Assembly (NCBI GenBank): GCA_016748015.1
Contig: JAAOMT010000594.1
Coordinates: forward strand, 124,001 to 188,000
Source of the DNA: Geosiphon pyriformis
Taxonomy: Eukaryota; Glomeromycota; Glomeromycetes; Archaeosporales; Geosiphonaceae
DNA length: 64,000 nt
Direction: 5' to 3'
This document shows positions 9,977-64,000 of the stretch, in pieces. Made by a program: the position numbers and the translations under genes. The notes beneath the pieces were generated by a model. It saw only the letters and a list, made by a program, of their open reading frames with translations, had not been told where the DNA came from and searched no databases. Every line of letters begins with the position of its first letter. The first letter of the stretch is position 1.

Positions 9977-10791
9977 TTTTTTTTCAATCATAAAATTTTA
10001 TAATAATTAAATTATAATTTTAATATAAATTATTTTAATTTTAATTTTAATAATAATATTAAATATTAAAATAAATATTACTTATTTAAAAAAATTTTAA
10101 TAATTAATAAATGTTTTTTAAATATAATTAAAAACAATAATATTTTTTAATTAAGCAATATTATTATGTAATTAATTAAAATTATGTGTTAAAATTAATT
10201 GTTTTAAAACTGGTAATGATTAACCGAAATTATTTATATTAAATAATTTAGCCAAAAAATAAATATAATAAACATATTGTTTTTTTACTGCATTAATTTT
10301 TTTGGCCATTTAAGTAATAATAATAAAAAGCATTAAAAAAATAATAATTTGTTACTTGTTTGTAGTTAAAAGTTCTTGAATTTTTAATAATAATAGTAAT
10401 AACACTAAAATTATTCTTAATAAACTGTTTTAAAAAAAATTAAAAAGAAAAAAACTTTTAACCAAAAACAATAATAGTGTTTTTTTAGCTACTAAACTGT
10501 TTAATTTTTTTATTATTTAAAAAATGTGTTTTTGTAAAGCAGTATTTAGTTGTTTTTATAATTTAATTTTTTTTGGATAGTTGCATTATTAAAAACAATA
10601 ATAAAAGTGATAATTGCTTTTTTTTTTACTTTAGTTGTAATCATATATTTATACTAAATATTCATAAAAAGTTTTTTATAACTTTTAATAATTTGTTTTT
10701 AAAAAAATTATTTTTATTATAAATAATATAAATTTATAAATTATTAATCATTTTAATAAAATTAGAAAATCTAACAAAATATAAAAATTAA

Positions 10792-10878
<87 letters not shown>

Positions 10879-11259
10879 AAATAGAAATTTTATTTTTATA
10901 ATTTGTAATTTATTTATATAAATTTATTATATATCTAATAAAAATTTTAAAATAATAAAGTTTATATTTTTTTTATGCATACGGTGCTATTTAAATACAG
11001 TTCATAATTGCGTTATTAAATAAGAAATGCCATTATATACATTAATAACAAATAAAAAAATAAAAAAAATAATTGTTTTAAAGCTAAAAAATAATGCTAA
11101 AATAAAAACTTATAATTAAACATGAAATTTTTTGTATATTAATTGTTGTCTAAACTTTATTGGATAACAAATGTTTCCTGCCACTTTACCATTTTTGATA
11201 CATATTTTTAAATCCTCTGTTAGCTCTAATTCAATTCTTTTTTAAACCAATTTCTCCAT
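9977..11259. other. AT-rich intergenic desert
   Basis: Almost pure A/T with short homopolymers and no open frame of coding composition. It contains the microsatellite at 10,795-10,877. Base composition recovers near 11,200, just before the PXMP4-like gene. No RNA gene or recognisable element was seen; it may be a fully eroded repeat. Confidence 0.6.
10795..10877. repeat. (AAT)n microsatellite
   Basis: About 27 uninterrupted TAA/AAT trinucleotides, ending at the sequence ATACAAATAG. A simple repeat with no coding frame around it. Confidence 0.95.
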
Positions 11260-12085
11260 ATGCTCTCAGAAACCGCTGCAATTTTCGTTAATGAACCAAA
11301 GTATCGTGATCTGTTACAAATTGTTAAAGGATTTCGAAATGGCGCTGTATACGGTGCAAAAGTACGGTTTCCTCATGCTTTGGTGATGGCTTTTCTATTT
11401 CGAGAGGGCAGGTGCGTTGAAATTAATAATTAAAAGGTTTCAACTCCTTGAGAGCTTTGTTAATGGCCTTATCTTAGACTATTTTAAAATTTATCAATCG
11501 AGAATATTTTCTCGCTGACCCATTTACCTCCCGTCTGCTGATTATGCGGACAGCATAAAAGAAAAAATCATATGGATCTTTCGTGCTACAAAACAACATT
11601 CTCGCAATCTCGCTTTATTTGTCACAATATATAAGATGACGATGTACATGCAAAAGAAACTTTCTGGTGACAAAGAATACAGTTCTCATGCATTTTTAGC
11701 CGGACTTATTGGAGGGTATTTCGTTTTTGGGGAGAATAATAATATCAATCAACAAGTAAGTACTTTTCATTTTTATTTGATTTTGTCATCAATTCTTCTA
11801 TCCAAGTTTTTTTACATTTTTTTGGTGAATCCACCATAGATTGTCCTATATGTTTTTGCTCGGATTATGATTGGTCTTGCTAAGTTACCAGTAGCCCGCA
11901 AGATCATTGATGAACCAAGAAACACTTTTCCAATTTTCGCCTCCCTTACGTGGGGGACTGTAATGTGGCTCTTTCGTCATGAACGGAATGTTCTTCAACC
12001 TTCCTTGCAAGCTTCCATGCAATATTTATACTTAGATTCGAATAACTGGAGCTCGATCAAGAATCTTTTGTGGCACAATAAATAG
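11260..12085 (+). CDS. PXMP4: PXMP4/PMP24-like peroxisomal membrane protein
   Basis: Three exons (11,260-11,411; 11,554-11,755; 11,840-12,085) splice in frame to 199 residues, close to the usual size of the family (around 210). The product carries family signatures along its whole length: KGFRNGAVYGAK and PHALVMAFLFREG near the N-terminus, HAFLAGLIGGYFVFGENNNIN in the middle, and LQPSLQASMQYLY-DSN at the C-terminus. The family is related to Tim17/Tim22/Tim23 proteins and spans the peroxisomal membrane; its exact role is not well defined. The start is the first ATG in frame with the conserved block (MLSETAAIF). Introns have GT-AG ends (gtgcgt...gacag; gtaagt...catag). It is convergent with the uL10m gene, with about 270 bp between stops. 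Confidence 0.9.
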
Positions 12086-21582: not shown

Positions 21583-22156
21583 TATTACTGAAAATTTTTG
21601 GGTCTTTTTTTTTGAATATTATAGATATTGTTTTTCTATTAATTTATAATTACTAAAAGTGATTGAATCTCTGATAACTGAATTTATCTTCAAATTATTT
21701 CTTATAATTTGAATTACTAAGTTTATGAATGAAATGGCCAATTCTGTACCAATTACTTATATAGTTATTTTATAGTAAAAGTTAATTTTTTTTAAGAAAT
21801 ACTTATCTAAAAGCTTATAAAAATATGTAGTTACTTTATTATAAAAGTCAACTTTTTTACAGAAATTTTGTCTATAAACTATTTTAATATATATAATAAT
21901 AAAAAAGAGAAAAACAAAAGAAATATAAACAAAAAAAAATTTTATTAAGGAAATTGTCTTTTGTTCAAACTTAAAATTACTAATAATTTACTAAAATTAA
22001 TAGCTAATTAATTTCAAAATATTAGTTAAAATTTGGGAAATTTCAAGTAAAATACTTATAAATTTTGTTGTTTTCAATATAGTTTTTAAGAAATAATTTG
22101 TATAGATACTAAAAAAGATATTTTTAGTGAAAATTATTTTAATTAAAATTGCAATT
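21583..22156 (-). mobile_element. Left (3') LTR of the Ty3-type element, first part
   Basis: This 574-bp segment aligns throughout with 34,921-35,500, e.g. ATGGCCAATTCTGT and TGTAGTTACTTT are shared. Nearly every difference is T or A here against C or G in the right copy. It stops at LINE B, whose target-site duplication (AAAATTGCAATT) ends it, and resumes at 28,938. Together the two parts give about 963 bp, against 968 bp for the intact right LTR. Confidence 0.8.
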
Positions 22157-22309
22157 AAAATAAAATAAAAAAACTTCTTTCTCTTCTTCATCCAAAATTC
22201 CCAAAAAAGAGTCAAAAGTTTTTTCGAAAGAAGTTTTTTTACCATTCAGTATGATAAATCAAAACCATTTTTCGATTACAAGGCCACTGTTGGCTCTGTT
22301 ATTGCTGTT

Positions 22310-27100: not shown

Positions 27101-28796
27101 GGTGGGTGTGGTTCATATTTTTGCCAACTGCAGCTTATCCTTTAGTAGTCCTGGCCCCAGTGCATTCTGATTCTCTCATGAAACTCCTATGTCTTTGGTT
27201 CTTGGGGAGGTGAAATTTTCTAGGTGTTTCTCCTCACTTCGGCGGTATGGAATTGCTTTTATAGAACAATTGTGTCAATGCAATGGTGGTGTTTTTGACT
27301 GGAAAACTTTCAAGTGTTGGAAAAGGCTGGATTCACGTGGCCCCATTCCTGATTGGTTTGGTGTTTCTGTTGGTTATCTTGGTGGTGTGAGTTCATTTTT
27401 TTCTGTTCATGGCTGTTCGGTAAGCATTTCTTCTGTTCTTAGTGTCTTGGAATCCACTGATTTTGATTTGGTTTGTAATCGTTTATTGGGATTGGGTGCT
27501 GATAGTCTTTTGGTCTATACCGATGGATCCTTGGCTGGTTTGGGCACTGTCAGTGTTAAATCAGGTGTGGTGGTTTTTTTTGATGATATTAATATGGGTT
27601 TAGGTGTTAAGGTCTCAGGTTTGTTGTCATCTACTTTGGCAGAATTGCAAGCTATTGCACTTGCTCTCGAGTGTGTTTCTGCAGTTAGCAAAGTTAGCTT
27701 ATTTTCAGATAGTCAGGCCACATTGGACGCTTGCAGATCGGAATTGGGTTTTGTGCATCTGGATTTTCAGAATAGTTGTTGGGTGGAGCGCTATCATATT
27801 GCTGGTCTTGTTTGTGCTAAGAGATTGGATGTCAGCTGGTGTAAGGTTAAAAGACATTCTGGTGTTGTAGGTAATGACCAGGCTGATGATCTGGCTGGCT
27901 ATGCGGCTCTTTCTGATTTTGTTCTTCCCCCCTGGCTGGATGAGCAGTTTATCCTGGCTGGTAGTAATCTGGTTTTGGGTAATTCTAGGCATTTTGTGCA
28001 TGACATTTATCGATCCATTCATCGTTCATGTTGGGGTTTCAGTTCGGGTAATAGGGTTGTCGCTGGCAAATTGCTCACAGATATCAATTGCCGCAGGTCC
28101 TCTTCTGTTTGGCATCCCAATTCACACATGGCTGTTGGCTTCACCAGTATTCAGACTGCTGGCTTGTGCATGTATTTTATGAAAGCTCTGCATCATAGGC
28201 TTCCTGTGACTGTTCGCAAACGCCTTTATGATAGGAGTTACCCTAGTGTGGTTTGCTTGTTTTGTGGAAGTGTGGAGGTCTCGGACCATGTTTTTTCTTG
28301 TGATTCTGACTTTGCTAATCATAATCGGCTGTTTGGTGATTTTGCAGTTAAATAGGAGGGCATTTCTGGCCTTCATGGCCCTTCTTTTCACATGCTGCGA
28401 ACTCTTTCTTTATGTATTTTTGACACCTTAGTCTGTGTTGCTCTATGCAAAGGCTTTGTTTTTAATGATTGGTTTTTTGAGGCGGATTCTGTTTTTGGTG
28501 ACCTGAAACTTGCTGGTGCAAAAATTGTGGACTTTATCTGTGATTTTTGTCTAGCTTTTAGAGATGAGGTTTGATTGGTCCATGTTAAACATTGTGCCTT
28601 TATGGAAAAGCATGGATTAATTCCTCGAAACGGTTCTGTGCCAGTTTCTATTTCTGGTCTGTCTTCCCTGTATTCAGTTGGAGTTGTCAGATTGTTGGGT
28701 ATTGATAATGCATTGGGCATTAGGTTTGGTTTGTGCAAATTTAGTTTGTTTGTTTCAGGCACTTTAGATGTGGTTTCTGTTTATATAGGTGCATAG
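24106..28796 (+). pseudogene. LINE B ORF2: endonuclease, reverse transcriptase, RNase H, broken
   Basis: Endonuclease domain (24,106-24,830): ETKLK, GSDFNE, VIDYMF and TDHRAVAV, so its catalytic set looks complete. Reverse transcriptase (about 25,650-26,650): DKAAGLSGI, LKGTTTQ, motif A read as NMEKAYDSV and motif C as FVNDT, both with Asn for an expected Asp. RNase H (27,510-27,910): YTDGS, AELQAI, FSDSQA, GNDQADDLA, all four acidic positions present. C-terminal zinc-binding motif CLFCG...DHVFSC at 28,253-28,302. Stops or frameshifts at about 24,257, 24,738, 24,859, 25,250, 25,701, 26,145, 27,168 and 28,353 inactivate it. Confidence 0.85.
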
Positions 28797-28937
28797 TGTT
28801 GTTCTGATTGGCCTGAGTGGCTAGTCACGTGTAGAAAGTGCATGATTTATGCCTAATTTAGATCAATTTTTTGATGTATAGTTTTAGGTTGTGTTTGGAC
28901 TTCACTTAATAAACGTATATAAAAAAAAATTGCAATT

Positions 28938-29326
28938 CTCTGATAAAATACATTTTTTCAAAGAAAAAAGCTCTTTTTTTATACAATTTGTTGTAATACT
29001 AGTTTTTAAACTTGCACTTTTTTTTTTGCTATTATTTTGACAAATTAAAAATACATTTTAATAAATTATAAATTGTTTTTATAAACTATTAACTATTTTA
29101 GTAAACTATTAAATTATTTTATGAAATTCTACAAATTTTGACAAATTTTTAAATGTTATAAAGTTTAGGGTATTATATAATCTGATTATTATATTTGTGT
29201 ATTATACAAATTAGGTGATTAATTAAATAATAAGTAATAATTGAAATAATAATAATATGTTAATTAAAAATACAAAATTATAAGAGTAATTTTATGTTAA
29301 TTATTGATTAAATTCTATTAGTAACA
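28938..29326 (-). mobile_element. Left (3') LTR of the Ty3-type element, second part
   Basis: It continues the LTR after LINE B and aligns with 35,490-35,888: TTATACAA-TTGTTGTA, ACTTGCACTTTT, and the end AAGAGTAATTTTATG...TAACA. The G+C of the right copy is again mostly replaced by A+T. The outer end (TAACA at 29,322-29,326) matches the right-copy end at 35,884-35,888. Confidence 0.78.
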
Positions 29327-32300
29327 TATTAAAATTAAGTCTTATTAAAGTCCAAATACTATCTATAATATCTAAATAGTAATTCAGTATTATTAAAATA
29401 ATTTGGTCTAAAAATTGTTAAAATTTTAGTTTTGTAAATTTGTTAATATATTGAATCTTTATTGGTTAAAATATTAGATTTTGTAAAACGTTTTTACAAA
29501 TATTAAATAAGTTATAAAGTTTAAAAGCTGCTTTAAGTTTGTATTGTATATTTGTTGGTTCAGTTGTTATTTAAAATTTGTGATGTATTTTTTTTTGTAT
29601 AGCTTTAGAAATAAAATTGGCTGCTTTAAGTTCTAATTTCTATTAATATAATGTTTTTTTAATTTGAAAATATTGATAAATAGGAGTATATTTACTGTTT
29701 TTATTAAAACACAGTTGAAGTTTTTGTTATATTGTAACATTTAAAGAAATGTTTATAAGAATAAACAATAAGTTTTTTTTTAAAGCTTGTTTCAAAAGTT
29801 TTGGTAAATAAATTCCAAAAAAACTTCTTGTTTTTTTTCTATAAGAATAGTAATTCTAAAAATTATTTATTATTAAAATTGTAGTTTTTTTCTAAATGTA
29901 ATTAATTTGACTTTTATTAATTGTTATAGATAAGTTAAGAAGTAACAGTTTTTTTAAATTGTAATAAGTAATAATTTAACTAAATTAATACTAACTCTAT
30001 TAAAAGACTGTTTAACTTTGATTAAATTTAAAGATTTAGTAAGAAAAATTCCTTTTTTCTTTAATAATTATTATAATATTTTACATATTGTCAAATATTT
30101 TTTACAAGTATAACTAAAAATAATGTTCAAGTGTTTTTTAAATAATACTATTTTTTCATAAATATGATAATAAAAAATTAATATATATATTATATAAAAT
30201 TGGTTTTTTTTTGATTTATTGTATTAAACTAAATAAATTGTTTGAGTTTTGGCAATTTTAATAATAAATTTTGTTGTAATATAGAAAATATTGTTTTGCT
30301 TAGTGTTATAATTGGTGTTTTTTAACTAAAAACCAATTTTTTGACATGATAAGAGTCTTTAAATAGTTTTAATATTGTTTTAATTTTCAGAATATATTTT
30401 TTATTAATTGTTGTTATTGAGTTAGTAAGTTGTTGGTATTAATTTTAATCTTATCTTATTTTTAAAAAACTATCTACATTGATATGTAATTTTTTTGGTT
30501 TGTAGTAAACAATATATTTATAGTTAATTAAAAAATTAGTTTATTAAAATTGTTTGATACTAAGTTTTGAATTCTTTTTATTAAGTCATTTGAAGCCAAT
30601 ATTGTTAATAATAATATCAAAAGTTTTTTTTCTTATAGATACTGTTAAAAGTATTTAAGAGTCCAAATAATAACTATTGTTTTCAATTTTGTGAAACCAT
30701 ATTTGAATTTTGTTGGGTTAAGTATTCTATTAGTATAAATAATTATTTGCTTATTATTATTATTATTTAATTGTAATAAAATAATATTAAAGACTATATA
30801 TAAAGTATTTATGACTAATTAAAACTGTTTATTAAAGTTTAGATAGATAAAAATTAGAACTGTTGTTAACTTTTTCTTAAAGATATTAAAAAAATTTTGT
30901 TGTGCTAAAGTTTATTAATATTTTATATTTTTATTGATTAAATAGTTAAGAAACTTTGCAATTTCACAATATTTTTTAATAAACTTTTTATAGTATAAGA
31001 CTAATTTATTAAATTTTCTCAATTCAATAATGTTTTAAAAAACTTTAAAGTTTTGTATAATATTGATCTTTTCTGAATTTGGCTTGATTTTATCTTTGTT
31101 GACTATATAATTTAAGAAAACCAAACTTATTTTTTCAAAGTAATATTTTGCAATATTTAATTTTAATCCTATTTTTTATAATTGTTAAAAAATTTCTTGT
31201 AAATAAATAAAATAAGCTTTAAAAGTTAGAAAGTAAACATTAATGTTGTTGAGATAAACAATTACTAATTATTATAGTAATATTTTATATACAATATTTA
31301 TAAAATGTTAAAATATTGTTAATATATTATAAAATTTAAAAAACATAATATTAAACTTATAATTTTTTTTGAATAGTAAAGACTGTTTTTAGGCAGTTTT
31401 TTAGATTTATTTTAACTTATTAGTATTTGTTTTTTAAGTCTAAAGTTAAAAAAAACTTGGCTTTTCTTAGAACATCTAATATATTGTTAATTTTTAATAA
31501 AGAATAAGTATTTTTAATTATAATACTATTCAATTGACAATAATTAACACAAAATATAATTTTGACATTTTTTTTGACCAAAACAACTAGTAAAGTTCAA
31601 AAGCTTTTTAATAATTAGATAAGACTATTTTTGAGTATTTGTTAACTTTTTTTCTTAATAAATTTGCAAGTAAAACTTAATATGCTTATTGGGATTTTAA
31701 TAAAGCATTTTTAGTATAAATCTGGTGCTAAATAATATCAGTTTTTTTTAGATTATTATTGTTTTTAGCAAATATATTAGCATATTCTGTAATAAGCTTT
31801 TTAAGTAGTCTTTGCTGTTAAGATTTCAAAAAATTCATGTTAATTTGCAATAATTTTTTCTGTGATGTAATAATTTTCAATATTGGTAGTAATATTAAAA
31901 TTGAAAAATAAAATATGTCTTACAATCTTAGTAAAATTAAAGACAGTTTGTAAGATTTTTTTTAGAAAATATTACTATGTATAATTCTGATTTCTAGTTT
32001 ATTTAATTAAATAATGAAGTAATTGTAAAAATTATAAAATATAACTTAAAACTTTTTTGTTTTCTTGGATATATAAATGTTTAATATAGAAATATTATGT
32101 TTTCTGTAAATTTGTTTATTAAATTTGAAAATTTGTTGTATAATAATAGATTTGGAACAAATATAGATTTTTTGATGTTTTTTAAAAGATTAGATAGTAA
32201 TTTGTTAAGAAAGTTAAAAAATCTGGTAAGATTTTTTTGTATATTAAAAACTATGTTTACTAGAATCATAAATTATCTAATTAAACCAAAATCTTGAATT

Positions 32301-34920
32301 TTTTTGTTATTTTTGCCTAATTGTTTTTTTTGATTAATTGATTACAAATCCAAAATAGAAATTAAGAATAAGTAAATAGCTTAAACAATTTTTTTACCAT
32401 GTTTAATTTTGAATAGTTTTTTGATTTTGTTTTGTAACATAATTTGATATTTTTTATATATTTTGTATCTATAACTTTTATTTTAACATTGATTTTTTTA
32501 CTAATTAAAGATAATTAAGAAGCAATTTAAATTATTGCTTTTGGTAAAATTTCAAAAGCTATTTTAAGATTAATTTTTGTTAAAAACTTTGGTTAAAAAA
32601 CCAAAATATTTTTGTCAAAATATTGTAGATCATATTTGTATTAATTTTGTGAACTTTTTCTGGTTTGATTTTTTGACTATTATTATTGAAGTACTTAAGT
32701 TGTATAACAGATTGATTTTTAATAAAGTAAACTAGAATAATTGGTAACTTTTTTTTTAGTTTTGTTTTACCAAATTCGATTTTATTTTCATTATCTTCAA
32801 TAAGTAATAGTATATTAAAAGCATAATATTCTGGATACTATTAATTATTACATAACATAACATATTATATTTTTTACACAATTGAATATTTATCTGTTCT
32901 AACTGTTAAATTTGGGTTTTTTTAAAAAGATAAATATAACTGATAATTAGGTAGTACTTTTCTACTTTATCTTTATAGTTATATTTAACAATTTCAAAAA
33001 TATACTTAATATATTTAGCTTCTTTTATTTGTCAGACATTTTCTTGAATTTTTTTATTAATTAAAATTATTGTTAGTTTATAGATTATTTTAGTATTATA
33101 AAGATAATAATATAGTTTGTTAAAAACACTGTTATATATTATATTAAATAAAATTTCTTTCTTAATATTTTTGGTAATTGATAAAACATATTAGTAAATT
33201 TGATTATATACTCTACTTTTTATTACAATATTGATCTAGTTATATTTATTTTAACAGTAATTTTTCATATGTAAAACAAAGTATATTGTCTTATTTTTTA
33301 TTTTGTTTTGAACTGCCAAATTATTTCTGGTAATAAACTTTACAGTAATAATAAATGTGAATTTTATATTTTTTTTCTGATAATATGTAAGCTCTTATAG
33401 ATGAAAGTTTTTATTGTAGTCTTTGTATTTAAATAGAATATAGAACAATTGCTTTTTTGGTTTTAGTTTTAAATATAGAACATATTAATTATTAACTAAT
33501 TTAATTGTAAAGATAAATTGTTGGTTAGTTTTTTCAAATTATAATAATATTAGTTGTAATATAAATGTCTTGAATAGCTGCTCAGTTTTTTCAGCCCAAT
33601 TAGATGTTAATTCAAAAGCCATGTAAAATTCAGTAATTGGTTTTTTTTTTCCTTTTTAAATTTAAATACAAAGATTTTTTTGATTATTTGTTGAAAATAA
33701 CATAAGTAACAGATATTTTAATGTATTGTTTTTGGTATAAAATTTTAAGTTTATGTATTTTCCAGTCTAAATTTGTATTGGTTTTGAAAAACCAATTATT
33801 TCTGACTAGAGCTTAATATTGAAATACATTTATAATTAAAATTTTAACTAAAATAGTAATTTTATTAATTATAAAGAAGAAATTGTCAATTTTTTATACT
33901 AAAATTTTTTTATATTATTAGCAATAACAATGACTGTTTAGGTTGGTCTGTTAATAGTTTGTTTAAACTGTTATATTAATTAATAAATAATAATGCTTTT
34001 GGCTAATTTATTGTTTAAAATTAAATAGTTTGGTTTTTTCTTTATTTTAACTTTAATATATATTACAGTAATTGTTTTTTGTTTTATAATAGCTGTATTT
34101 TTAAGCAAAAATGATAATTTATTTGCTTTAAATTTAAATAGAAAGATATCTTAAAGATTAATATTTTTGGCAATTTAAACTGGTAAAATAGTTTGAAAGT
34201 TATTAGAAAAATTTTGTTTAAGTGCTACAACTTTATCTTTAAAAAATAATTTATTAAAAATTCAATTTTTTTAATATTGTTAGATAACTAAATTAAATGT
34301 GATAATATATGAGTTTTTGTTGTAAATTGTTTTAAGGAATTAATTAGTTATTGGTATTAATTTTATTGCTATTAATTACAAAATAGTTTTACAATAAAAA
34401 TTGGTTTTGCTAAACCAATTTTCTTGTAAGTACTTGGTATTATTGAATAGATAATAATTATTGAAACTGTTATTGAATTAATTGTATAACAGATTTATAG
34501 TAATTGTATTAGTATTAGTATCTTGGAGAATAATAACTAGTAGTAAAAGTAGATAATAAGATTGCTGCAATTGGGAATAATATTAATTATTTTTTTGTTG
34601 TTAGTTTCTTTGTATTTTCTTACAAACTTATTTTCAATATCTTAAAATCTTATAATAGTAACAATTTTAAGATTGGTTGTTAAATGATAATAAAAAATTA
34701 TTTTGGTTTTATTATTGTAGTTGATATTTTTGTTATTACTATTGTTATTAATTGGTAAAATAGGTTTCAATTTTTTTGGTTAGTTAATCAATTTTTTTTT
34801 CAGCTATTAAGTTGGTTTTTTTAATAACTAAGTTAACAAGTTTGGTACAGTTGGCTTTTTTAATTACTATTTTATAGGTCTTAGCATATTGAATAATTGT
34901 AACTAGATCTTTTTAAACAT
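29327..34920 (-). mobile_element. Internal region of a Ty3-type element, hypermutated to A+T
   Basis: About 5.6 kb between two matching LTRs, the usual internal size of a Ty3-type retrotransposon. No frame is open for any length, yet remnants of pol are readable on the minus strand (see 30,860-31,610). By position, gag and protease should lie in 31,700-34,900 and RNase H/integrase in 29,400-30,850; I could not read convincing motifs there. Small open frames near 32,081-32,297 occur on both strands and are chance results of A/T composition. Confidence 0.7.
30860..31610 (-). pseudogene. Relic of a Ty3-type reverse transcriptase
   Basis: Reading leftward from about 31,610, the translation shows S-F-stop-T-L-L-VVLVKK, FCVNYCQLNS, KNTYSL, AKFFLTLDLKNKY, and then YLNNINVYF-TFKAYF-YLQEIF with YLNN at about 31,245-31,256. 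These correspond to the Ty3-family blocks SPWTSPVVLVKK, FCVDYRQLN, LDLKSGYWQ and YLDD-I-V-S-T-EEH-QHL-EVF. Almost every departure from the family is explained by C-to-T or G-to-A: Pro to Phe or Leu, Trp and Gln to stop, Asp to Asn, Arg to Cys, His to Tyr. Reading frame is largely kept, so decay was by substitution rather than indels. The match is from recalled family motifs. Confidence 0.72.
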
Positions 34921-35888
34921 TGTTACCAGAGGTTTTTGGTCTCTTTTCTTGAATGTTGTTACTATTTGTCTATTGCTAATTTCACGTTTTTTGGAAGCAA
35001 TTGAATCTCCAATAACCAAATTTATCTTCAAATTATCTCCTATAATTTGAACTGCTGGGCTTATAAGTAAAATGGCCAATTCTGTGCCAGTTGCTTTATG
35101 TAGTTACGTTGTAGTAAACATCAACTTTTTCCCAGGAATTGCTCATCTGGAAGCTTACTAAAAATGTGTAGTTACTTTGCTGTAAAAGTCAACTCTTCTA
35201 CAGGAATCTTGTTTGTAGGCTACCTTAATGATTATGATAAGAAAAAGTAAAAGAAAAATAAAGAAATGTAAAAGAAAATAGAATTGTCAAGGAAAACGTT
35301 TTCTATCCAGGCCTGGAGTCACTAACAAATTACTGAAATTAGTAGCTAATCAATTTCGAAATGTTAGTTGTATTGAGGGAATTTCAAATGTAATAATCAA
35401 AGGATTTTGTTTTTCGAATATTTAATTTTTATTTGAGATGTTTTTAAAAGTGATTTGTTCTAATTAAGATGTTTAAAGTAAAATACTATGATAAAATACT
35501 ATGAGAAAATGCATTTTCTTGAAAAAAAAAGCTTTTTTTTTATACAACTTGTTGTAGTACTAGTCTTTGAACTTGCACTTTTCTTTTTGCTACAATTTGG
35601 GTGAACTAAAGATACATTTCGGCAAACTACAAGTTATTTCACTGAACTATTGATTATTTCGACCAATTTTCATTAATTTTGACGAATTTTGACTATGTTA
35701 AATGGTTCAGAGTATTGTGTAATTTGATCATCTTAATTTCTATAGTACAAATTGGATTATTAAAATAATATTTGATAATTTGATTAATAATAAGTGATAA
35801 TCAAAATAATAATAATATATGCTAATTAATAATAAAAATTATAAGAGTAATTTTATGCTAATTAATAGCTAAAATTCTACTGATAACA
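34921..35888 (-). mobile_element. Right (5') LTR of the Ty3-type element
   Basis: A 968-bp segment starting TGTTACCAGAGG and ending GATAACA (TG...CA ends), homologous over its length to the split left LTR. On the minus strand it lies upstream of the reverse transcriptase relic, so it is the 5' LTR. It keeps visibly more G+C than the left LTR and the internal region. No matching target-site duplication was found at the outer ends, perhaps because of decay. Confidence 0.75.
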
Positions 35889-42868: not shown

Positions 42869-42990
42869 TGTTGTTCTGATCAGCCCAAGTGGCTGGTCAC
42901 ATGTAGAAAGTGCATGATTCATGCCTAGTTTAAATCATTTTTTTGATGTATAGTACTAGGTAGTATTTGAACTTCACTCGTAAAGCAAAT

Positions 42991-50177: not shown

Positions 50178-52204
50178 AAAGCATTTTTTTTCTTTATTTA
50201 ATAGTTTATTTTTTTTATATATATATTTAAATTAATTTTAGTATTTTTTACTTTCTTTAAAAATTTTAAAGTTTTTAATAATAAGCCAATTATTCTTATT
50301 ATTACTATTACAATTATTTTACAAATAATTAAAAGACCAAAAAATTCGAAAAACAATAATAGTTATTTTTGTTTACTATTATTATATTAAATATTTTTGT
50401 AATTTTAGATAAAATTTTAAAATAAAATTTTTGTAATAATAATTAGTTTTTTTTAATATAAACAATAACAATAATAATATATCTTTTATAATAAATTAAA
50501 TTTAATTATTATTATTTTTTTATTACCAGTTTTATGAATAAAGCCCAATATTAATTATTAGCTATTTTACTAAAAGTAGTATTTTTTAAAAATAAAACAA
50601 AACATGTTTTTAAATACTATTTTTACTTAATTAATTTATTAAATTATTTGATTTTAAGAATTGAACTGATTAAATAAAAACTGAATTAATATTTTTTTAT
50701 TTTTTGGTACAATTTTTAATAATGCTTAGAAAATAATTACTAATTATCAAAAATTTTTGAATAGATAGTTTTTATTTTAATGTTTAATTATATATTTAAA
50801 ATTAAATTGGCTTTTGTTAATTTTTTGTTTTATTTATTGTCTGGTTTTTTTAAATTCAAATTTATTTTAAATAATAATATTAAGTTGTTTTATGTAAATT
50901 TTGTTTTTAAAGTTTTTTTAATTATTATTATTAAAATTTTTATTGATAATTTTGTGTTTTTAATTATATTTAAAATTATAAAGTTTTTTGTAGTAACTTT
51001 TGTTTTTTTCTATTGTATTTTATAATGTTTTTTTTGGTATATTTTTTAATAACATTAAAAATATCTTAAATATTTTTGGTAATATTAATTAAAATTTGTA
51101 AGTTTATAATAATATGTTGTTATTTAATTTAAGAAAATTTTTTTTGTTGTTGTTTTTACTTGTTAATCTGTATTAATAAACAAACAATATTAAAAAAATT
51201 TTTATTTAATTAAAAAAAAATTTACTTTAAAAAACAGTTTTAAAACCAAATTAATCAATCTTTTTTTGGTTGTATAGTTTTTAAAATCAGTAATTTAATT
51301 TTTTAAGTTAGTAATTATATATGTTTTATTTTAAATTTTTATTGTTAATACTTTTTATTGTAATTTTTAAGTCTTTGAATATTATAAATCTTATTATTTT
51401 GAAAATTGGTATTTTATATAAGTATTTTATTTAGTAAAAACTTTTAAATATTATTATTATTACAATTTCAAGATTTAAATTATTTGGTTTTAAATTATAA
51501 AATGTTTTTATTTTTATTTTCTAAGTTTTTTATTAAATTTATTGGTGATTTCAAGTTTTTTAATTTGTTTTTTGTTGTTACAAAGTTTTATGTTAAAGCT
51601 TTTAACTTTTTAATTTTTATTATTATTATTTTTGGCTGTTTTTGTTATTAATTTTGTAATTAATTTTAAATTGAATTTTTTGGAATTTTAAATCTTTAAT
51701 TTGGCTGTATTAATTAAGTTTATTATTAAATTAAATGGTTTTTTGGTATTTTGGTTATTTTTTTTTGGCTAAAAATATATATAAAAATCTTAAAATAAAA
51801 AAAAATTAGTTATTAAGAATTTTACTATTTTTTTGGCTTGTTTATTTAAAAACTTTGCTAATTTAAAGTTAAAATAAATTTATTAACATAAATAATAATA
51901 ATTTAAATAATATTAAAATGTTTTTTTAAATAACTTAATTATTGAATATTTAATAGTACTATAATAAATATATAATTTTAATATTAAATATAGTATTAAT
52001 AAAACCAGATTGTTTTTAAATAAGTTTGTTTTTAATAATTAAAATTTAAATAGCTTTATAATAAACTTAATAAGTTAAGTTTATTTTTAGTTTTTTTTTA
52101 TTTTTACTTAATTTATGTTTTAATTAATTTAAATAGTTAATTATATATAAAAAATACATGATTTATATTTAATTTAAGATTTTTAATAAGTTATATTTTA
52201 TTAA
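50178..52204. other. AT-rich desert between LINE D and LINE E
   Basis: Two kilobases of nearly pure A/T. The plus-strand frame at 50,780-51,025 encodes only Phe, Ile, Lys, Leu, Val and Asn-type residues, as expected from A/T-biased sequence, and is not claimed as a gene. It may be a fully eroded retrotransposon like 29,327-34,920; no motif was readable. Confidence 0.5.
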
Positions 52205-52213
52205 ATAGTAATT

Positions 52214-53671
52214 TTTTTTTTAACAAGTAAGATCTAAACATTACTTAGTACAATACATCATATAAGTAATCTAAACTAGATATAAATCATGCTTTTTCTA
52301 GATATAACCAGTCATTCGGACCAATTAGAACAATACTATGCATCTACACAAACTAAAACTAAGTTTCCAATGCCAAAAAAAAACAGGCAAAACTTGTGCA
52401 AACCAAAACTAACACTAAATGTCTTAGTAATGCTAAGCAATCTAACCACACCAGCAAAAAGCACTAAAAACAGCCCAAAAACAGAAACAAAAGCTGAACT
52501 ATCATGAGAAATCAGCCTATTTTTTTTCATAAAGACATAATATTTAGCACAAACCAATCAAACCTCCTCCCTAAAAGCAAAACAAAATTCATGCACAAAG
52601 TTTACAATTTTCAGATCTGCAACTTTAGAATTACTGAAAACAGAAACAGTCTCTTGACACTAATCATTAAAAACAAAGCTCTTATAGAAAGCCATCTACA
52701 TCACAACATCAGAAACACAGAAGAGCATTGGCTAAAATACACATAAAAACAATGAAAAAGACTAGATAGTACTCTTTAAGCATCTGCATAGACATTTAAC
52801 AAATAATAGTGAACAGAATTGTTAAATATGCAAGAAAAAACATGGTCTGAGACCTCAATATTATCACAATACAAACATATTATACTGGGGTAGCACTTGT
52901 CATACAGGTACTTTTGAACAACAATAGGTAGCCAATAATGCAAAGCTTTTATAAAATAAGTATAAACATTAGCAGTAAATCTGCCAATAAAATCAGCAGT
53001 CATATGCAAATCTGAATGTTACACCAAAAATAAACTCAGCCAATCAATATCCAAAAGCAAACAATCAGTTAGAATCTTAGAACCAAAATCAACTTTTCAG
53101 AATATATAATAAACAAACTGAAAAATTTCATAAACAAAATATCTAGAATTACTAAAAACAACACGACTATCTACTTTAATATAATGTTCTTTTAACTGAA
53201 AGAAAAAAATTCCACTTAAAAAAAAATACAGTATTAGCAAATGTATCAACACATTTATTATCCAAAATACCCAAATAATCCCTCACTTTGTGCTAGCTAA
53301 CATTCAAATTTTTGTCATAAACAATGTTCATGATATGCCACTGTTCAATTTAATACTGATTCTGAAAATCTGGATATACCAAATTCAACTTAAATTTGTA
53401 TACAACCAAAACTGTTTAACTGTCCATAAATAATTAAACTGATCTGTAAGAAGGAATACACTCGAAAGCCAAAGCAATAGCTTGTAACTCTGCTAATATA
53501 GAAGATATCAAACCAGAAACTTTAACACCCAAATCCAAATTTATGTCCTTAAAAAAAACTGCTGTATCAGTCCTTATGTGAGTTGTTTTCAAGTCTTTTA
53601 AAGACTTATCCATATAGACAAACAGACTACCAATATTAATATCTAATAAATAGCCATAAACTAATTCAAAT
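52214..53671 (-). mobile_element. LINE E: 5'-truncated LINE (3' 1.46 kb only)
   Basis: The minus strand encodes only the RNase H and C-terminal zinc-binding parts of ORF2: VYMDKSLKDL near 53,610, matching VYTDGSLSNL of LINE D, then ALHYWLPIVVQKYLYDKCYP and CLYCDNIEVSDHVFSC, then 3' UTR and A-tail at 52,214-52,225. The 9-bp direct repeat ATAGTAATT flanks it at 52,205-52,213 and 53,672-53,680. A truncated 5' end with intact 3' end is the classic result of incomplete target-primed reverse transcription. Stops are frequent. Confidence 0.8.
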
Positions 53672-55731: not shown

Positions 55732-57189
55732 ATGTCTGCACCATTAGCTTTAAATCCAAAGGAACCAGGAGGAAAAGATGCCGCCAAAAGGGCCAAAGAA
55801 GCCGAGAAATTAGAGAAGGTGAGATTTCCAAAGCAATTCTTTATCATTTTAAAACCTACCTCACACAATTTAGCTTTTATAGCAACGTCAAAAGGCAAAA
55901 CAGAATCTGCAACGTCAACAGGAAAAGGTTAGCAATCTTTTTAGGAAAGATTACGATAATCTGGAATTGAATATTTATTTAAACGACGCGTTTATTTTTA
56001 TTTCTCACCTTAGGAAGAACTAAAAGCAGAAAAACAACGAATTAAAGAATTAAATCAAGCAGAAAAGCAACGAATTAAAGAATTAAATCAAGCAAATAAA
56101 ATCAGAATTGACAAATTGGATATGACAAAGGAAATGATAATTGAGGTGGACAAGGAATTAATGGTACAACCATTAGGCGCCTTATTGCGAGAAAAGTTTG
56201 AAGCCAAACTGGTCACCATCAATTCTGTAAGTCACGATATACCACAAATATTTAGTTGGCGGCGTAAGGTGACCACGGATTGGAGTGAAGAAATAGGCGG
56301 CTTCATACCCGTTGAGGAAAGAATTCAAGAGGAAAATCATATTTTAGCTTATTTACAGATGGATGAACTCAGGGAATTAATTACAAATGAATCGTTGCAA
56401 ACTTTTCATAATAATTTACAAACAATATTTGTCGAAAAAAAAATCATCTATCTGATTGAAGGGCTTCAAGAATATTTTCGACGGAAAAAAGCGCAAAAAA
56501 ACCGTATATTTAACAATGCCGTGCGGTCTGCCATAGGAGAATCACCTGAAAACGTGAGAAAACCAAAAAAGAGAAATAACAATGATCAAGGCCCAGATCA
56601 AGAAAAAATTGAAGAGTCTCTAATCTGGTTACAGGTGGTCGCCAATTGTTTTATTGTACATACTAATAATCTGCAGGAATCCGCCGAGATGATCGGCATC
56701 CTCACTACTGATATTGCAAGGATCCCTTATAAGTGGGTTGATAGGTTGAATTTCTTTAGGTTTAATAACATAATAATCTTTTATCTGCTTTTCATCAGGA
56801 ATCGCAGCACAGAATTGAACTTTTGTATTGAAAACCAGATACGCGCAGGTGCTAATGCTAGTGATACGTGGTTTCGAATGCTTCAAGAAATTCAACTGGT
56901 TACTCAACCCGTTGCCAAAGCCATCGTGCGCGAATACCCGACCCTAAAAGTGTTATATTGCGCTTATGAAAATTGTCGCAGCCTCGAAGAGGCGGAGTCC
57001 TTATTGGCTCATGTGGAGGTATGAAGTAATTTGTCTTTTCTCCATGGATTTGATCCAACTCTAAATATTGAGGCGTTGTAGATCACGGGTACTGGATTGG
57101 GTCACCGTAATCGTTACATAAACAAGCCTCTTTCAAAGAGAATACACGATTTGTTCTTGGGTACGAATCCTGATATATTGATAACATAA
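55732..57189 (+). CDS. EME1: EME1/Mms4-type subunit of a Mus81 structure-specific endonuclease
   Basis: Four exons (55,732-55,818; 56,014-56,732; 56,799-57,018; 57,082-57,189) splice in frame to 377 residues. After a basic start (GGKDAAKRAKEAEKLEK) and a repeated EKQRIKELNQA coiled-coil, the ERCC4-like domain is recognised by FSWRRKVTTDWSEEIGGFIP, HTNNLQESAEMIGILTTDIA, then IPYKNRSTELNFC, MLQEIQLVTQPVAKAIV and a C-terminal helix-hairpin-helix-like segment (NKPLSKRIHDLFLGTNPD). EME1 is the non-catalytic partner of Mus81, which cleaves recombination and stalled-fork intermediates in the nucleus. The third intron (56,733-56,798, 66 bp) has no stop and can be read through, but only splicing gives the conserved YKNR join. 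The protein is shorter than yeast or human relatives because its N-terminal region is short. Confidence 0.87.
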
Positions 57190-57288
57190 TCAAGGAATTT
57201 TGGTGTAAGTTGGAATTATATTAGAAATTATTTGCTTTATGATATTCTTCGTTCCAAACCAATTTATGATTCCGTGCATTGTATTCTA

Positions 57289-60200
57289 TTAAGGCTCTTC
57301 TCTAAAACTGACAAGATTTTGCTGTTCTTTTACTAAATCTCCAACTTTATAATATATTTTATCAATTATCCCAGGAAAGGGTGACTTTACAAGGTGCTAT
57401 AGTTTTTTGATTGAATGTTAATTATTTTTCGCTAAATAGGAGTCAAAACAAAAATGAACAATATTTTTACCTCCATCTTCATTGCCTCTAAAACCATGAG
57501 AGGTGTTCCTTTCTCTACCACTTGCCCAGGTGCTACCAATATCTGTTTTCATAAGAAATTTAGTTTTTATACTTAGGACATGACACGGTAATGGAAAGAA
57601 TTTTGAAATTGAGAAATAAGAATACCCGAGATATTTTACAAGGCATTGGAGTTTTCACGGACCCTGCTACTTCTGAGGCACTAGTGTAAAGATAAACAGG
57701 ATCAGGGATCCTCAAAACGGTTGTGTCGCGCTGGAATTTAATAATTTAAGTAGTTTGTCAAAAAAAAATCCAACTCGTTCAAATCCAACTCACCTGACCA
57801 ATCATAAACACCCTTTTATTATCATACTCTATGATTCGAGTGGAAAAGCTTTGGTCGCCAATCTGAGCATTAATCTTTTTCTCCATGATATCCCATTCGG
57901 CATTTACACTCGAAAATAAATTCGAGTTGCCTCCAGGCTTCCCGACTCTTATATCAAATGTGCCATCCTTGTTGTATTTTATACCAACATCTACCATGTT
58001 ATCTCCCGAGTCGATAAAAGAAATAAAACGAGTGTCTTGAGTGTTTAATCTGGTGGCAGTAAGCGTGTACCATGGTGAGTATGGATCTAATTTGGTAATC
58101 GCGGATATAAAATAATGGGGTGAAGAAAAACAGCATCAGAAAAGAAGTTTAATCACTAACCCAGGGTGCTACGGGCTTTGCTTTCTTCGTTCTTTATTTC
58201 TTTTAGTAAAAAGAATAAAGCAGCCTGAACAAAAACTTGAGCAGGAGGTTCGGTTTTAGATGGAATCAAATCCCCTTTGTATTTCTGCGTATTTCAAAAT
58301 TAGCCTTTAAGTACGAGTCATTTTGCCGAACAAATTTTGGTTTGACGTTCAAACCTCGATGAATCCAGTTTCCAGTTTTCCATCTATTAAAGCACGATGA
58401 GAAACCAAATTTTTCAGGAAATCTATGTTGGTATTCAAGCCAACAACCTAAAAGTAGTGAGTTGATTGTTCATATTTATTTTTTAAAAAGAATTTTGATT
58501 TTATGTATAAAAAAAACATAATTCAGTGACCTCATATTCATTTAGTGCCCTTCCCAGTACTCTCAATGCGTCATGGCGATTTGCTCCCTTGACTACTAAT
58601 TTAGAAATCATAGGATCATAATAGATGCTAATTTGGTCCCCTTGTTCAAAACCAGTCTCCAAACGAACATTAGAGGAGGTAGGAGGTGTGCGTATATGAT
58701 ATAGTAGTCCCGTATCTGGTAGGAAATCGCTGGTAAAAGATATGAAAAATAATTAATTTCAAGCAAGTAAAAGACCAAAATGGTATTTTTGTATAATCCC
58801 TACTTTTCAGGATTTTCTGCATATATACGCGCTTCAAAAGAGTGACCATCAATGTGCAATTCTTCTTGACTAAGTGGCAATTCATTCCCAGCAGCAACCT
58901 AGGCTCACCGTGAACACATTCTTTACCGAAATACTGAATTGGCCAAAAATATAGATTAAACGTTATATCACTAACCTCCAATTGCCAATGAACTAAATCG
59001 GTATGTGTTATCATTTCAGTGACCGGATGTTCTACTTGAAGACGGGTGTTCATCTCCATAAAATAGAATTTCTGAGTTTGATTGTCAAAGATAAATTCTA
59101 CTGTTCCAGCCCCAATATAATTTACGGCTTTAGCCGCCGCCACTGCTTTTTCTCCTAACTCAGATCTCAAGGTTTCACTTAACCCGGGGGCAGGTGCCTC
59201 TTCAAGAACTTTCTGATGTCTCCTTTGAATTGAACAATCTCTTTCAAATAAATATACGGCATTTCCGTGAGTATCAGTAAATATCTGCACTTCAATATGA
59301 CGAGATGTCGGCAAATATTTCTCAATAAGAACTTGATCATCTCCAAATGATTTAATAGCTTCGCGCTTCGACGATTCGAGTTGAAATTCAAATTCAGAAG
59401 GTTCGTTCACGATACGCATACCCTTTCCACCACCTCCTCTAACTGCTTTAATTAGAACAGGATATCCAATCTCCAAAGCTTTTTGTTTAAGGAATGTGAT
59501 TTCTTGGTTTTTTCCATGGTAACCGGGTATAACAGGAACTTGTGCATCAATCATGATTTCTTTGGATTCACTATTTATACCAATTATTAATTTATACGCA
59601 TCAATAATTAAATAAAAGTAAAAAAAATAAGTTCTCAACCTCTTTGAGCCCATAGCGATAATCGCTGATGTCGGTGGACCGATGAAGGTGATATTTTCTT
59701 CCGACAAACGTTGGGCAAACATTGAATTTTCCGAAAGGAACCCATAGCCGGGATGGATAGCCTATTTAATAAGGATTTAGCTTTTAAAAATAAACAGAGT
59801 GGAAAAAACTCGCACCAACTTTGTAATATCCAATAATTGGAATAATACCTGTGAACCACTAAGTTTAGCCACTGATATAATCTTTTCAATGTTCAAATAG
59901 CTTTCTGCAGAAGGTGCAGGCCCTATTAGAAAGGCTTCATCCGCCTATATAAAATGAAATATCAGCTATCTACAAAATGGGAAAGCCGCTCTTAATCGAA
60001 CATTAAATTTACCATTTTAACATGAAGGGCATTTTTGTCAGCCTCACTGTAAACGGCGACGGATTTTATTCCTAAAGATTTTGCTGTACGTATAACACGA
60101 CAGGCAATTTCCCCTCTAAATGCAAGAGGAATAATCCTGTATAAGCTGAACCAAAATTTATCAAAAATGCTAAATTTTCTTTACCGATTGGCTATCAAGA

Positions 60201-60423
60201 TTTTATCAAAAAGCGGCTTACGTTCTAAAGTAGATAAGTAAAAGAATAAGAGATACTAGAAAGATTTAAGTCAAGCTCAATACTCCATACCAAATTTTGA
60301 AAAATCTCTGGCAGATTTTTGGCGCAAAGAAAGCCAGAAAGGGGATGGTATCTTATGATTTAAATAATATAAATGCAAGCCAAAATGTGCATTTTTTGAG
60401 GACCGTCGCAATAGGCTGGACAT
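57289..60423 (-). CDS. MCCC1: 3-methylcrotonyl-CoA carboxylase alpha (biotin-containing) subunit, mitochondrial
   Basis: Fourteen exons give 725 residues, the usual family size. Exons from the 5' end: 60,291-60,423; 60,185-60,224; 60,013-60,115; 59,849-59,944; 59,640-59,761; 58,976-59,570; 58,804-58,898; 58,531-58,729; 58,355-58,447; 58,161-58,284; 57,794-58,086; 57,626-57,730; 57,471-57,542; 57,289-57,396. A basic presequence ([20 protein letters not shown]) precedes the biotin carboxylase domain: [23 protein letters not shown], the ATP-grasp loop GGGGKGMR (210-217) and [14 protein letters not shown]. The BT domain ([13 protein letters not shown]...[11 protein letters not shown]) follows, then the biotinyl domain with AMKM; Lys688 (57,477-57,479) is the biotin site. 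The enzyme carboxylates 3-methylcrotonyl-CoA in leucine breakdown with a beta subunit not seen here. It is convergent with EME1, 99 bp apart. Confidence 0.95.
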
Positions 60424-61208
60424 CTTCAACGTCTTAGCTTAAGCAAGTATTATTAGTGATGACTTCCCTTTTCTTGAGGGTGAACTCAGAAACTCTATTG
60501 ATCATTCGCGGCTTAAAATATAACTACGAGTTACATGAACGAGAATGAAATGCCTTCAAAAAAACCCGGTAATTCTTTGCCCGAAATGGTAACTATTTAA
60601 AAATTAGATTCGATATTTGTTATTGTTGATTTAGTTAAAATTATTTATTTATCAATTTTTTGTTCACTTTTTTTTAGTTTATAATTTTAAAAGTCAAATA
60701 ATTTCATAGTTTTTTAAATTAAAAAAAAACAACAACGTTACATTTTTAGTTAACTTAATTAAAACAAACTTTTTTTCTAAAATTATTATAAATTGGTTTT
60801 TATTTTAATTTTATTATTTAAAAAAATGATATATAAAAATATCTTTAAAATTGATTTTTGAAAAATCCTTTGTTCTTGTGTCACACTACACCCATGATGA
60901 TGAGAATCTCGTACCAAAAGTTTCACAACTTGGTTCTACACGATAAAAGAAAAAAGGCTCGCGTTTAATCAATTTTTTCTTATTTAAAAGTGAAATTTAT
61001 CCTTATTTAAATTCTCAACAACTAAAAGTGTACTATACGAGTTAGTAATAGTGGATCAGTGTAAAAAACCTTTGATTTTTGATTGTGGTATAATCCCTAG
61101 AGAGCTGTAGCAAGTCCCATTCTATGCTGAGCAAGCCTTATTCAGGTACCTTTTCAAGTGAATCCTCTCATCCAGCTTTGAGAAAACAAGTTTAAATAAT
61201 TTTCCTGG
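60424..61208. promoter_or_regulatory. Bidirectional promoter region
   Basis: About 785 bp separate the divergent starts of the MCCC1-like gene (minus) and the unrecognised gene at 61,209 (plus). The centre (60,600-60,870) is A/T-rich with homopolymers; the flanks are of normal composition. No specific site is claimed. Confidence 0.4.
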
Positions 61209-63447
61209 ATGATGAACGGGGATTATGGAACATCGAACCCTTCTCGACCTAAAATTCAACGCCTTCCAAGCCACCGTAAACCAAGGGTTGCCAATTCAGC
61301 CAAACTCGATCTCTCACAAATAAAGCCACAGGTCTCAAAGAGTGATACTCTACCTCTAAACCCTGGCCTTCTTAGGGCTCCGGCTTTTCGGAGTAAGAGC
61401 CTTAACCAAATACAGCAAAAAGGGAGATCGAGATCTGATGATGGGTTCCATTCAGACTCCGATAAAGATAGTATTCATTCCAACAAAAGTGTACAAAGTA
61501 GTCAAAGTCATCTTAATAGAACTTCTTCCTTCACAAAGCTTGAGCCTGTTGCACGTGTGCGCCCTTCTTCTTTGAGCAATTTTTCGGAAACTCCGAAGCA
61601 AGATAGTTTTAATCTTGACTCTTTGACAGATAGTCGACAATACCAGACTGAAAACAAAGCGGCTGAAGCTAGACAAGAGAGAAAGGTAAGAATTAATGTA
61701 AAACCTACGATAGCCCCCTATAATTTGAATTTTCTAAACGAAATTAAAGTTTTTTGGACATCTCCTTTCATTTGAAATTTGAATTAAAATTATTTATCTC
61801 AAATATTATTATTTAACCACTTAGTTTGATGCTTTCCAACCTGCATGTCTTTTCTCAATCATAGATTCAAGACTTGGAAATCTCCATTAACTCATTAATG
61901 AATATAAATGCTGAATTAGATGCTGTCAACAAAAAACAAGCTGCGGAAATTCAAGATTTGAAAAAAAGGCTTCAAAGGTATCAATGAGGGTATCACTTTT
62001 TTGGAAAAAATATTAAATTAAAGCATATTTTTATTATAGAAATGACACTTTCATGTCAGGAATATCTTCATTAAACATAGAAAATGAAGATACCAACACG
62101 TCAACACCCTTGTCAGATGTAAGTTTACATAATGCTCTCCATATCTTTTAGCCTTAAGAAAATTGAAGGAACAACTTGAACTAGGCTAATACTCAATAAT
62201 CACTGCAACTACCTATTTGTTGGTTTATGGTGATACAATCAAACCGCACGAACTAGATGGAATTCTTAGAGCAGGAAAGAGACAATGACACCAGATTTCG
62301 TCAAATACTACTAGTAATAGATGAAATGATTCGTGATGGTAAAACAGCCATTGAATATACTCCCAAAATTAATGGTAGTCGAGTATTGAATAGTATTCAA
62401 TTAGGTAAATATTCATATAGTTTTATAATTTTTTGCTCAGTCTTATTTAATTTTTAATTTTTCCTAATAATAACCCTAGAAGAACCTCCAATACCAAAAG
62501 GGATATATCCCGAGATCATGGACTGTCCTTATAACAATATTGAGAGTGTTTCTCAAAATGGGCTTGACTCGGATGAAGAATTGGATATTTTCAAACTATC
62601 CGCAAATCAAAACGGATCAATACAAATAAGAGACAATTTATTATCGAAAAAGGAGAAGACTAAAAGTTCAAATGGTGAAATGATTACCCTATCCAATCAA
62701 TCAAGATCTTCGGAAAAAGAGGAGGCAAATCTGGAATCATTAGACACAAATCATCTCAGTAAGCTGAAACATGAAAGTGCTAGTGAAGCACTATGCCTCA
62801 ATGAAGAAAGGGTTCGAGCTGTAATTGATGAACTTTTGGTATTTGCTAAACAAAGCAATGCCAATATAATTTATGAGTTTCCAACAACACCGTCAGTTTC
62901 TGAAAGGAAAGGATTAGGATTGCTGTTGCCAATTCAAGAAGGGCCTTCATCATATACAGCTTCGGGGAGTATTATTATGGGAGAGGAGGAGGAAGAGGAG
63001 GAGGAAGAATATGCAACAAAATCATCACCTACTATAAAACTTTTATATGAACTCAAAGAATTACTCTTTGGGAATGTTCACCGTTCAATAAACTTGAGAA
63101 AATACAAGAGGATTTTACCAATGGTGGCCTCTAGCCGTATAGACTTGCAAGTTGTTTCACCAGATGGCAAAAAAGAAATCTTAGATGGAAATTTTCAATC
63201 TGCTGGAATTTCTGTACGGAACCATCGTCTATCTCCAAAAGGTCGAATTATACGTCGGCAATCTTCTCCCAATTTTCGAACTCTTGTACAACCCACACAC
63301 ACATCAAGTCACTCTGAGGGCAAAATCAATTTAGCCGATGATGGATATAAGAGCAAAATTACCAATGTTAAAGAAACCCCTGAAATAGCCAACCCCTCTT
63401 GGGTATCCTCTTTGGGTTTTCTGTCGCCTTGGAAGATCTCCCAATAA
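61209..63447 (+). CDS. Unrecognised Ser-rich protein with central coiled coil
   Basis: Five exons (61,209-61,685; 61,865-61,977; 62,040-62,118; 62,257-62,404; 62,480-63,447) splice in phase to about 594 residues. The first 160 residues are Ser/Arg/Lys-rich and probably disordered, with several basic-Ser sites (RSKSL, RSRSDD, NRTSSF). Residues about 150-205 form a predicted coiled coil (AEARQERK, then IQDLEISINSLMNINAELDA and QAAEIQDLKKRLQ). A compact stretch follows (RFRQILLVIDEMIRDG). The C-terminal half has an acidic Glu run near 62,985-63,010, short hydrophobic helices and many Ser/Lys sites. Composition suggests a cytoskeletal, septum or signalling adaptor, but I recognise no family. The start is the first of two adjacent Met codons. 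Confidence 0.65.
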
Positions 63448-63822
63448 CTCTATTACTCTGATGGCTGCCATTTGATTTTCCGAGCCTTTGAACTCAATTT
63501 GCTGCTGAGTTTACCACTAATTATTCCTTGTGGGTTAAGCTTAAATTATGGATGGATAAACGGACAATATTGTGATTGCAAAATTTGTTTTTAACAGGCT
63601 AGGATACTCTTGATCGATAATAAATATTTTTGTTTTCAATACTTTTTGTTCATAATACAACGCGCTAAAATGTAGTCATAAAACCTAATTTTAATTCAAC
63701 AAGTCAATTTTTTTTCTAGCTGAGCTTTTAAATCAGATTTTATAATGTGTTTGAAAGTGACCTATCAGATAGCAGAATCACAATAAATTATCACTGGTCT
63801 TAAAAAAAAGACTCAAGACAAA
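63448..63822. other. Intergenic spacer
   Basis: About 375 bp between two genes in the same direction. It has AATAAA-like signals at about 63,620 and 63,783 and no open frame. Probably 3' UTR followed by the next promoter. Confidence 0.4.
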
Positions 63823-64000
63823 ATGAACACTTTTCCTCGAAGAAGTGCTCGTGTTAAAGCATCAGCAGAAAAGCAAAAATTGCTAAGCCAAAGTAACAGT
63901 TCTGAAAAAATTTCTCCAAAAATAAGAAGTGAGCGAAGCGCTATCAAATCAACAGAAAGCAAGAAACTCTCTAATTCAACTCTTCATCTTGCTATAGCTT
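63823..64000 (+). CDS. N-terminus of an unrecognised basic, Ser/Lys-rich protein, cut by window edge
   Basis: The frame is open from ATG 63,823 to the window end (59 residues visible). It starts MNTFPRRSARVKASAEKQK and is rich in Ser, Lys and Arg, as in disordered N-termini of nuclear proteins. The start has A at -3 and coding-like codon use. Too little is visible to name a family. Confidence 0.5.
   Translation, partial: MNTFPRRSARVKASAEKQKLLSQSNSSEKISPKIRSERSAIKSTESKKLSNSTLHLAIA

Follow-up and report, generated by a model that had tools for sequence, protein, structure and literature searches.

A decayed Ty3/gypsy pol gene

The window described here is a stretch of 64,000 nucleotides of Geosiphon pyriformis DNA, situated in an assembly of 124.7 Mb and 406 contigs. 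At 30-33 kb it carries a retrotransposon pol gene with a GC content of 0.166 (16.6%) and 54 stops among 1002 codons (Table 1). A first-pass annotation had described its reverse transcriptase (RT) block as decayed almost purely by C-to-T and G-to-A changes while remaining in frame, and had proposed a cytosine-deamination process such as RIP or loss of 5-methylcytosine (5mC). The question raised by this locus is which process degrades a transposon in such a manner.

The relic corresponds to the dUTPase, protease, RT, RNase H and start of the integrase domains identified in L039, a young copy of its element. Using Pfam on the relic itself, RNase H was the sole domain still recognised, with the RT lying at approximately 31.6-31.1 kb. 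Judged by these features the relic is a dead Ty3/gypsy pol, a type marked by RT, RNase H and integrase in order together with LTRs: the domains are found in the young relative and RNase H in the relic, with the LTRs being tentative. Aligned with many gaps, the candidate LTR pair shows 50 transitions and 58 transversions, many of the latter lying outside the core, and dating of the relic by LTR-LTR divergence was rejected on these counts. The two fragments are probably not one clean pair and may stem from two different insertions.

In two young relatives of the relic, L039 (C198:18597) and L051 (C238:347570), a dUTPase (PF00692, 1.6e-22 and 4.3e-25, respectively) was identified ahead of the RT. 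Ty3 elements bearing a dUTPase are known from Basidiomycota (Phanerochaete), and the likeness lies in PF00692 preceding RT and RNase H in both copies (and integrase also in L039). The element type is thereby ordinary, and its decay alone is the subject here.

Table 1. Features of the window referred to in the text
Feature	Position	Strand	Remarks
Relic Ty3/gypsy pol	30002..33045	minus	End-to-end alignment with younger genomic copies: 3,034 aligned bases, 16 indels
RT block of the first-pass annotation	30860..31610	minus	96 G:C>A:T changes at 151 GC sites
RNase H region	30621..30905	minus	Pfam match with stops read as X: PF17919 1.4e-11, PF17917 1.8e-09
Possible left LTR fragment	28934..29098		78% to 35495-35659
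Possible right LTR fragment	35495..35659		Less decayed than left fragment
Second AT-rich relic, PF00075 retroelement family	52194..53670	minus	G:C>A:T 0.39 per GC site
Control intergenic DNA, mostly without close repeats	10200..11500		GC 0.18, CpG o/e 1.2
Control single-copy gene region	55800..63900		CpG o/e ~0.78 in GC-richer part

The motif changes VDYRQLN to VNYCQLN, ESGYWQ to KNKY-stop-stop and YLDD to YLNN were all present in the relic, and the rarity of indels was likewise borne out. The reading frame has been retained only roughly, as 15 of the 16 indels have lengths not divisible by three and the RT block itself contains a 2-nt frameshift near 31369. Purity in that block also required qualification, with 66% of changes being G:C>A:T against the nearest young copies fetched (~65% identity). 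Where all young genomic copies share one base, the G:C>A:T changes listed in Table 1 were accompanied by 14 A:T>G:C changes and 36 transversions at 537 sites. Compared to L039, transitions climb from 547-580 in copies of intermediate decay (27-29% GC) to 756 in the relic (~550 to ~760), while transversions are near-flat at 279-285 in the intermediates and 310 in the relic (270-310 across the relics compared). On this comparison most of the other changes in the block are older subfamily divergence, which leaves a decay proper that is nearly pure G:C>A:T.

Mutation spectrum and its rise with age

More than 1,600 candidate copies of the relic were found on the genome, and more than 3,000 candidates for a younger relative. 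An alignment of 49 sequences from fetched copies over 3.1 kb comprised young family A (35-37% GC), the related family B, intermediates (27-34% GC) and relics (16-21% GC), with the copies making a continuous GC series from 37% to 16%. Neither a consensus nor a mended element was used; counts of substitutions were confined to columns in which the young copies agree, with agreement of family B additionally required in one test.

At these columns the rate of G:C>A:T change per GC site was 0.19 in the intermediates that had decayed least and climbed to 0.61 in the window relic. Over this rise the other classes remained low, with 0.012-0.032 for A:T>G:C changes, 0.047-0.073 for AT transversions and <0.05 for GC transversions. 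Using a closer reference set with 30 copies, G:C>A:T rose from 0.25 to 0.60, with A:T>G:C at 0.016-0.036 and AT transversions at 0.005-0.035. Two young copies of 94% identity differed by 164 transitions and 7 transversions, with no indels in 3,056 bases.

Among changes private to a single copy, G:C>A:T accounted for 280 of 365 (77%) in family A, 250 of 265 (94%) in family B, where only 15 others were found, and 166 of 263 (63%) in family C. With three long-branch copies removed the share was 81% for A and 83% for C. Two family C copies and L056 showed more balanced changes, which are read as pre-insertion divergence. Rates of G:C>A:T change were near-equal over codon positions 1, 2 and 3 (0.060/0.061/0.070 and 0.056/0.049/0.062), indicating that these changes arose after insertion and without selection. 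The few other changes in family A were enriched at codon position 3, suggesting that many of them, at least in this family, preceded insertion.

An assembly or base-calling artefact, in which methylated C is misread as T, would also be confined to transposons and appear on both strands. Since systematic miscalls depend on local context, they would recur from copy to copy. Such an origin is very unlikely, because each change is restricted to one copy and its sister copies have C between identical neighbouring bases. Furthermore, as many as 60% of the GC sites have changed in relics.

The window also contains four copies (22150-28950, 36783-43020, 43443-50179 and 2305-8563) of a different retroelement family, whose RNase H is of PF00075; all four have a CpG observed/expected ratio (o/e) of 0.14-0.27 yet a GC content of 36-41%. 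Copies W1-W3 of this family were dropped as a source of a terminal spectrum, being too diverged. In the second AT-rich relic, which belongs to this family, A:T>G:C changes stood at 0.05, AT transversions at 0.045 and GC transversions at 0.014. An AT-rich repeat at 9500-10200 of the window was also observed, with a CpG o/e of 0.21 and ~1,350 candidate genomic places, the best matches having ~70-78% identity.

Comparison with non-transposon DNA

The genome contains a large expansion of Sel1-repeat genes, which, like its transposon load and set of methyltransferases, is in keeping with Glomeromycotina. Eleven copies of these genes (83-87% identity, ~780 bp) yielded 40 G:C>A:T changes, 60 A:T>G:C changes and 75 transversions. 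The resulting G:C>A:T share of 23% differs from that of each transposon family (Fisher p 7e-17 to 4e-58). G:C>A:T changes per GC site relative to AT transversions per AT site gave 117 for family B (on 5 transversions) versus 1.8 for the Sel1-repeat genes. In a duplicated gene for a C5-methyltransferase, compared over 911 bp at 90% identity and over one further stretch, 50 transitions and 25 transversions were counted. These are the two non-transposon duplicate controls, and their main weakness is that both are coding and under selection; an F-box gene and the single-copy gene region were also tried as duplicate controls and no duplicates of them were found.

General AT-biased mutation, under which dead copies would simply approach the neutral base composition of the genome, draws on the AT-richness of non-transposon intergenic DNA in the window (GC 0.18-0.22, near the 0.17 of the relic). 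At equilibrium that composition implies a ratio of G:C>A:T over A:T>G:C of ~4, whereas transposon copies gave ~14-84 and the non-transposon gene family 1.4. An argument from composition alone was also rejected, as intergenic DNA of similar GC keeps a CpG o/e of 1.2 versus 0.14-0.16 in relics (0.14 in the window relic), so that CpG depletion is here a property of transposon DNA. A uracil glycosylase gene, UNG, is present as well (three exons at C271:277695-278345), which speaks against such a bias and rules out UNG loss as a cause, a possibility prompted by a weak PF03167 result. A single weak PF03167 match of 25 bits (G000:C282:250264-250581), separate from the UNG exons, is possibly a TDG/MUG-type enzyme. 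AT-biased mutation is thus largely refuted by the gene controls and is regarded as improbable. The ordinary spectra of these controls and the CpG o/e of intergenic DNA show that, as far as tested with two non-transposon controls, the decay is confined to transposons and is not a general AT bias.

Sequence context, strand and RIP indices

In young copies C>T change was most frequent at CpG (79/291, 0.27), followed by CpC (171/2757, 0.062), CpT (197/4240, 0.046) and CpA (242/5376, 0.045), with CpA and CpT not differing (p 0.77). Rates were 0.033 for CHG and 0.053 for CHH. With regard to the preceding base, TpC stood at 0.085 versus 0.039-0.054 after other bases; over young copies of families A, B and C, C>T was ~2x commoner after T (268/3167 versus 425/9538). 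In relics CpG and CpC exceeded CpT and CpA, while TpC and CpC exceeded ApC and GpC.

Both strands were affected alike, with 127 C>T and 123 G>A changes in family B, and similar numbers of changes on the strands of young copies without coordination along a copy. Spatial clustering at p <0.05 was found in only 1 of 17 copies tested. Editing of cDNA by an APOBEC-like deaminase, or reverse transcriptase error, has on its side the ~twofold favouring of TpC. The equality of C>T and G>A, the uncoordinated strands and a decay that keeps rising with age, which needs a genomic double-strand process, make an origin of this kind highly improbable.

The standard RIP indices of the relic were marginally positive (1.08 / 0.96 / +0.12). 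Simulation on a young copy gave 0.96 / 1.14 / -0.18 for context-free C>T decay and 1.48 / 0.19 / +1.3 for CpA-only decay. The relic is therefore nowhere near the CpA-driven outcome, and the indices were rejected as evidence, since most of its positive signal follows from context-free C>T decay; standard indices would mislead here. These counts by strand and context, together with the indices, were among the checks that had been suggested, and they gave equal strands, CpG as the hottest context and no CpA preference.

DNA methyltransferases encoded on the genome

Ten matches to methylases were identified, distributed over seven gene regions. The catalytic region of L062, the query for which was three adjacent exon pieces read by eye and joined with X at the joints, had its best PDB match with the C5 methyltransferase 9bap/9baq (1,244-1,456 residues; 8e-29 to 1e-28), with DNMT1 at 2e-23. 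From its length, we take 9bap/9baq to be Neurospora DIM-2. BAH-type N-terminal regions were found in L062 (above the Pfam cut-off) and L066 (below it), and both are predicted to be DIM-2-like, L066 by a sequence that parallels L062. L064 matches DNMT1 and L069 matches DNMT2, with L067/L068 putatively assigned to DNMT2 by motif only.

The duplicated C5-methyltransferase gene has its copies ~32 kb apart at C318:788280-789372 (L061/L063) and C318:820713-821336 (L065), the second of which looks damaged. L061 and L065 gave C5 methyltransferase matches without a clear subfamily, with RID being possible for L061, which makes up a fifth C5 methyltransferase locus. Of the RID/DIM-2-type enzymes sought, the DIM-2 type thus has two candidates.

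Origin of the decay

Classical RIP, as in Neurospora and other Ascomycota, resembles the present decay in G:C>A:T change on both strands, in its confinement to repeats and in the presence of a DIM-2-like enzyme on the genome. Differences from RIP are the absence of a CpA preference, CpG being the hottest context, the escape of non-transposon duplicates of 83-90% identity and the proliferation of the family; duplication as a trigger would account for the transposon families and not for the Sel1-repeat genes or the duplicated methyltransferase gene (two non-transposon cases only). Of the proposals made earlier for this locus, classical RIP is therefore not supported, while those of deamination and 5mC loss find support. 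In a kingdom-wide k-mer-enrichment screen RIP-like signatures were found only in Ascomycota (Badet and Croll 2025, PMC12543289), and RIP signatures have been reported as absent in Gigaspora and Mucoromycotina, in work cited in PMC8647823.

Another parallel is the Dim2-dependent mitotic mutator of Zymoseptoria tritici, where >95% of mutations in transposons are C>T (PMC8016269) and DIM-2 is present, as DIM-2-like genes are here. The corresponding share here is 94% in family B, 77% in A and 63% in C (81-83% in A and C without long-branch copies). That mutator acts at CpA (>98%) and spares CpG, in contrast to the all-context decay with CpG hottest seen here. An active RIP-like or mitotic DIM-2-dependent mutator that attacks transposons without the CpA preference of Ascomycota would fit the purity of family B, the two DIM-2-like genes and the large excess over the non-transposon spectrum, and L061 could be RID-like, RID having been reported in arbuscular mycorrhizal fungi (AMF; PMC8298701). 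Such a mutator is a minority possibility, in view of the lack of CpA preference, the untouched non-transposon duplicates, the absence of the clusters or strand runs expected from one burst on one strand, the continuous GC series and the growth of the family to >1,600 candidates. By the same measure it is rather doubtful that a non-ascomycete fungus runs an active, DIM-2-like-linked cytosine mutator directed at transposons in all contexts, favouring CpG and TpC and not triggered by mere duplication.

A cytosine-deamination-type process is strongly supported by changes that are confined to transposons, near-purely G:C>A:T, on both strands and post-insertion. The decay is probably best explained, with some margin for doubt, by dense 5mC in all contexts on transposons and its deamination to T. 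Inserted retrotransposons would be packed into chromatin with methylated cytosines, at CpG and to a lesser degree in every other context, with the methylation placed by DNMT1-type and DIM-2-like cytosine methyltransferases. Deamination of 5mC to thymine would then proceed site by site on either strand, such that each copy would slide from ~37% to ~16% GC by G:C>A:T change almost alone, gaining stops and few indels, and the oldest would end as relics like the pol at 30-33 kb. The earlier suggestion of 5mC loss holds provided that non-CG methylation is included, since CpA, CpT and CpC make up the greater part of the cytosines lost.

In Rhizophagus irregularis 32.5-49.5% of cytosine was found to be methylated by LC-MS (PMC8298701), far above the 13.8% of cytosines that are mCG sites (PMC8647823), a difference that could accommodate much non-CG 5mC. 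AMF are also said to have DNMT1, DNMT2, DNMT5, DIM-2 and RID (PMC8298701). As in the CpG methylation decay of transposons in vertebrates, plants and Basidiomycota (with CG methylation described in R. irregularis, PMC8647823), CpG decays fastest here, with a CpG o/e of ~0.15 in transposons versus ~0.8-1.2 in non-transposon DNA. It is unlike that decay in that the majority of cytosines lost lie outside CpG, and these too decay much more rapidly than the other classes of site. Against methylation, the excess over the non-transposon spectrum looks larger than 5mC usually gives, the TpC preference is not accounted for by it, and the possible LTR pair of the relic has as many transversions as transitions.

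On this reading the decay would be a variant of methylation-linked transposon decay; in a limited literature search, G:C>A:T decay in all contexts was not found to have been described for transposons of Glomeromycotina. Although arbuscular mycorrhizal fungi and their relatives are reported to lack RIP, transposons are destroyed here all the same, by a G:C>A:T decay that is near-pure and escapes indices based on CpA. This would link the unusually high 5mC of R. irregularis, with its unassigned non-CG part, to the origin of repeat-rich, AT-rich genomes, and it leads to a testable prediction, namely that young Ty3 copies are densely methylated at non-CG sites.
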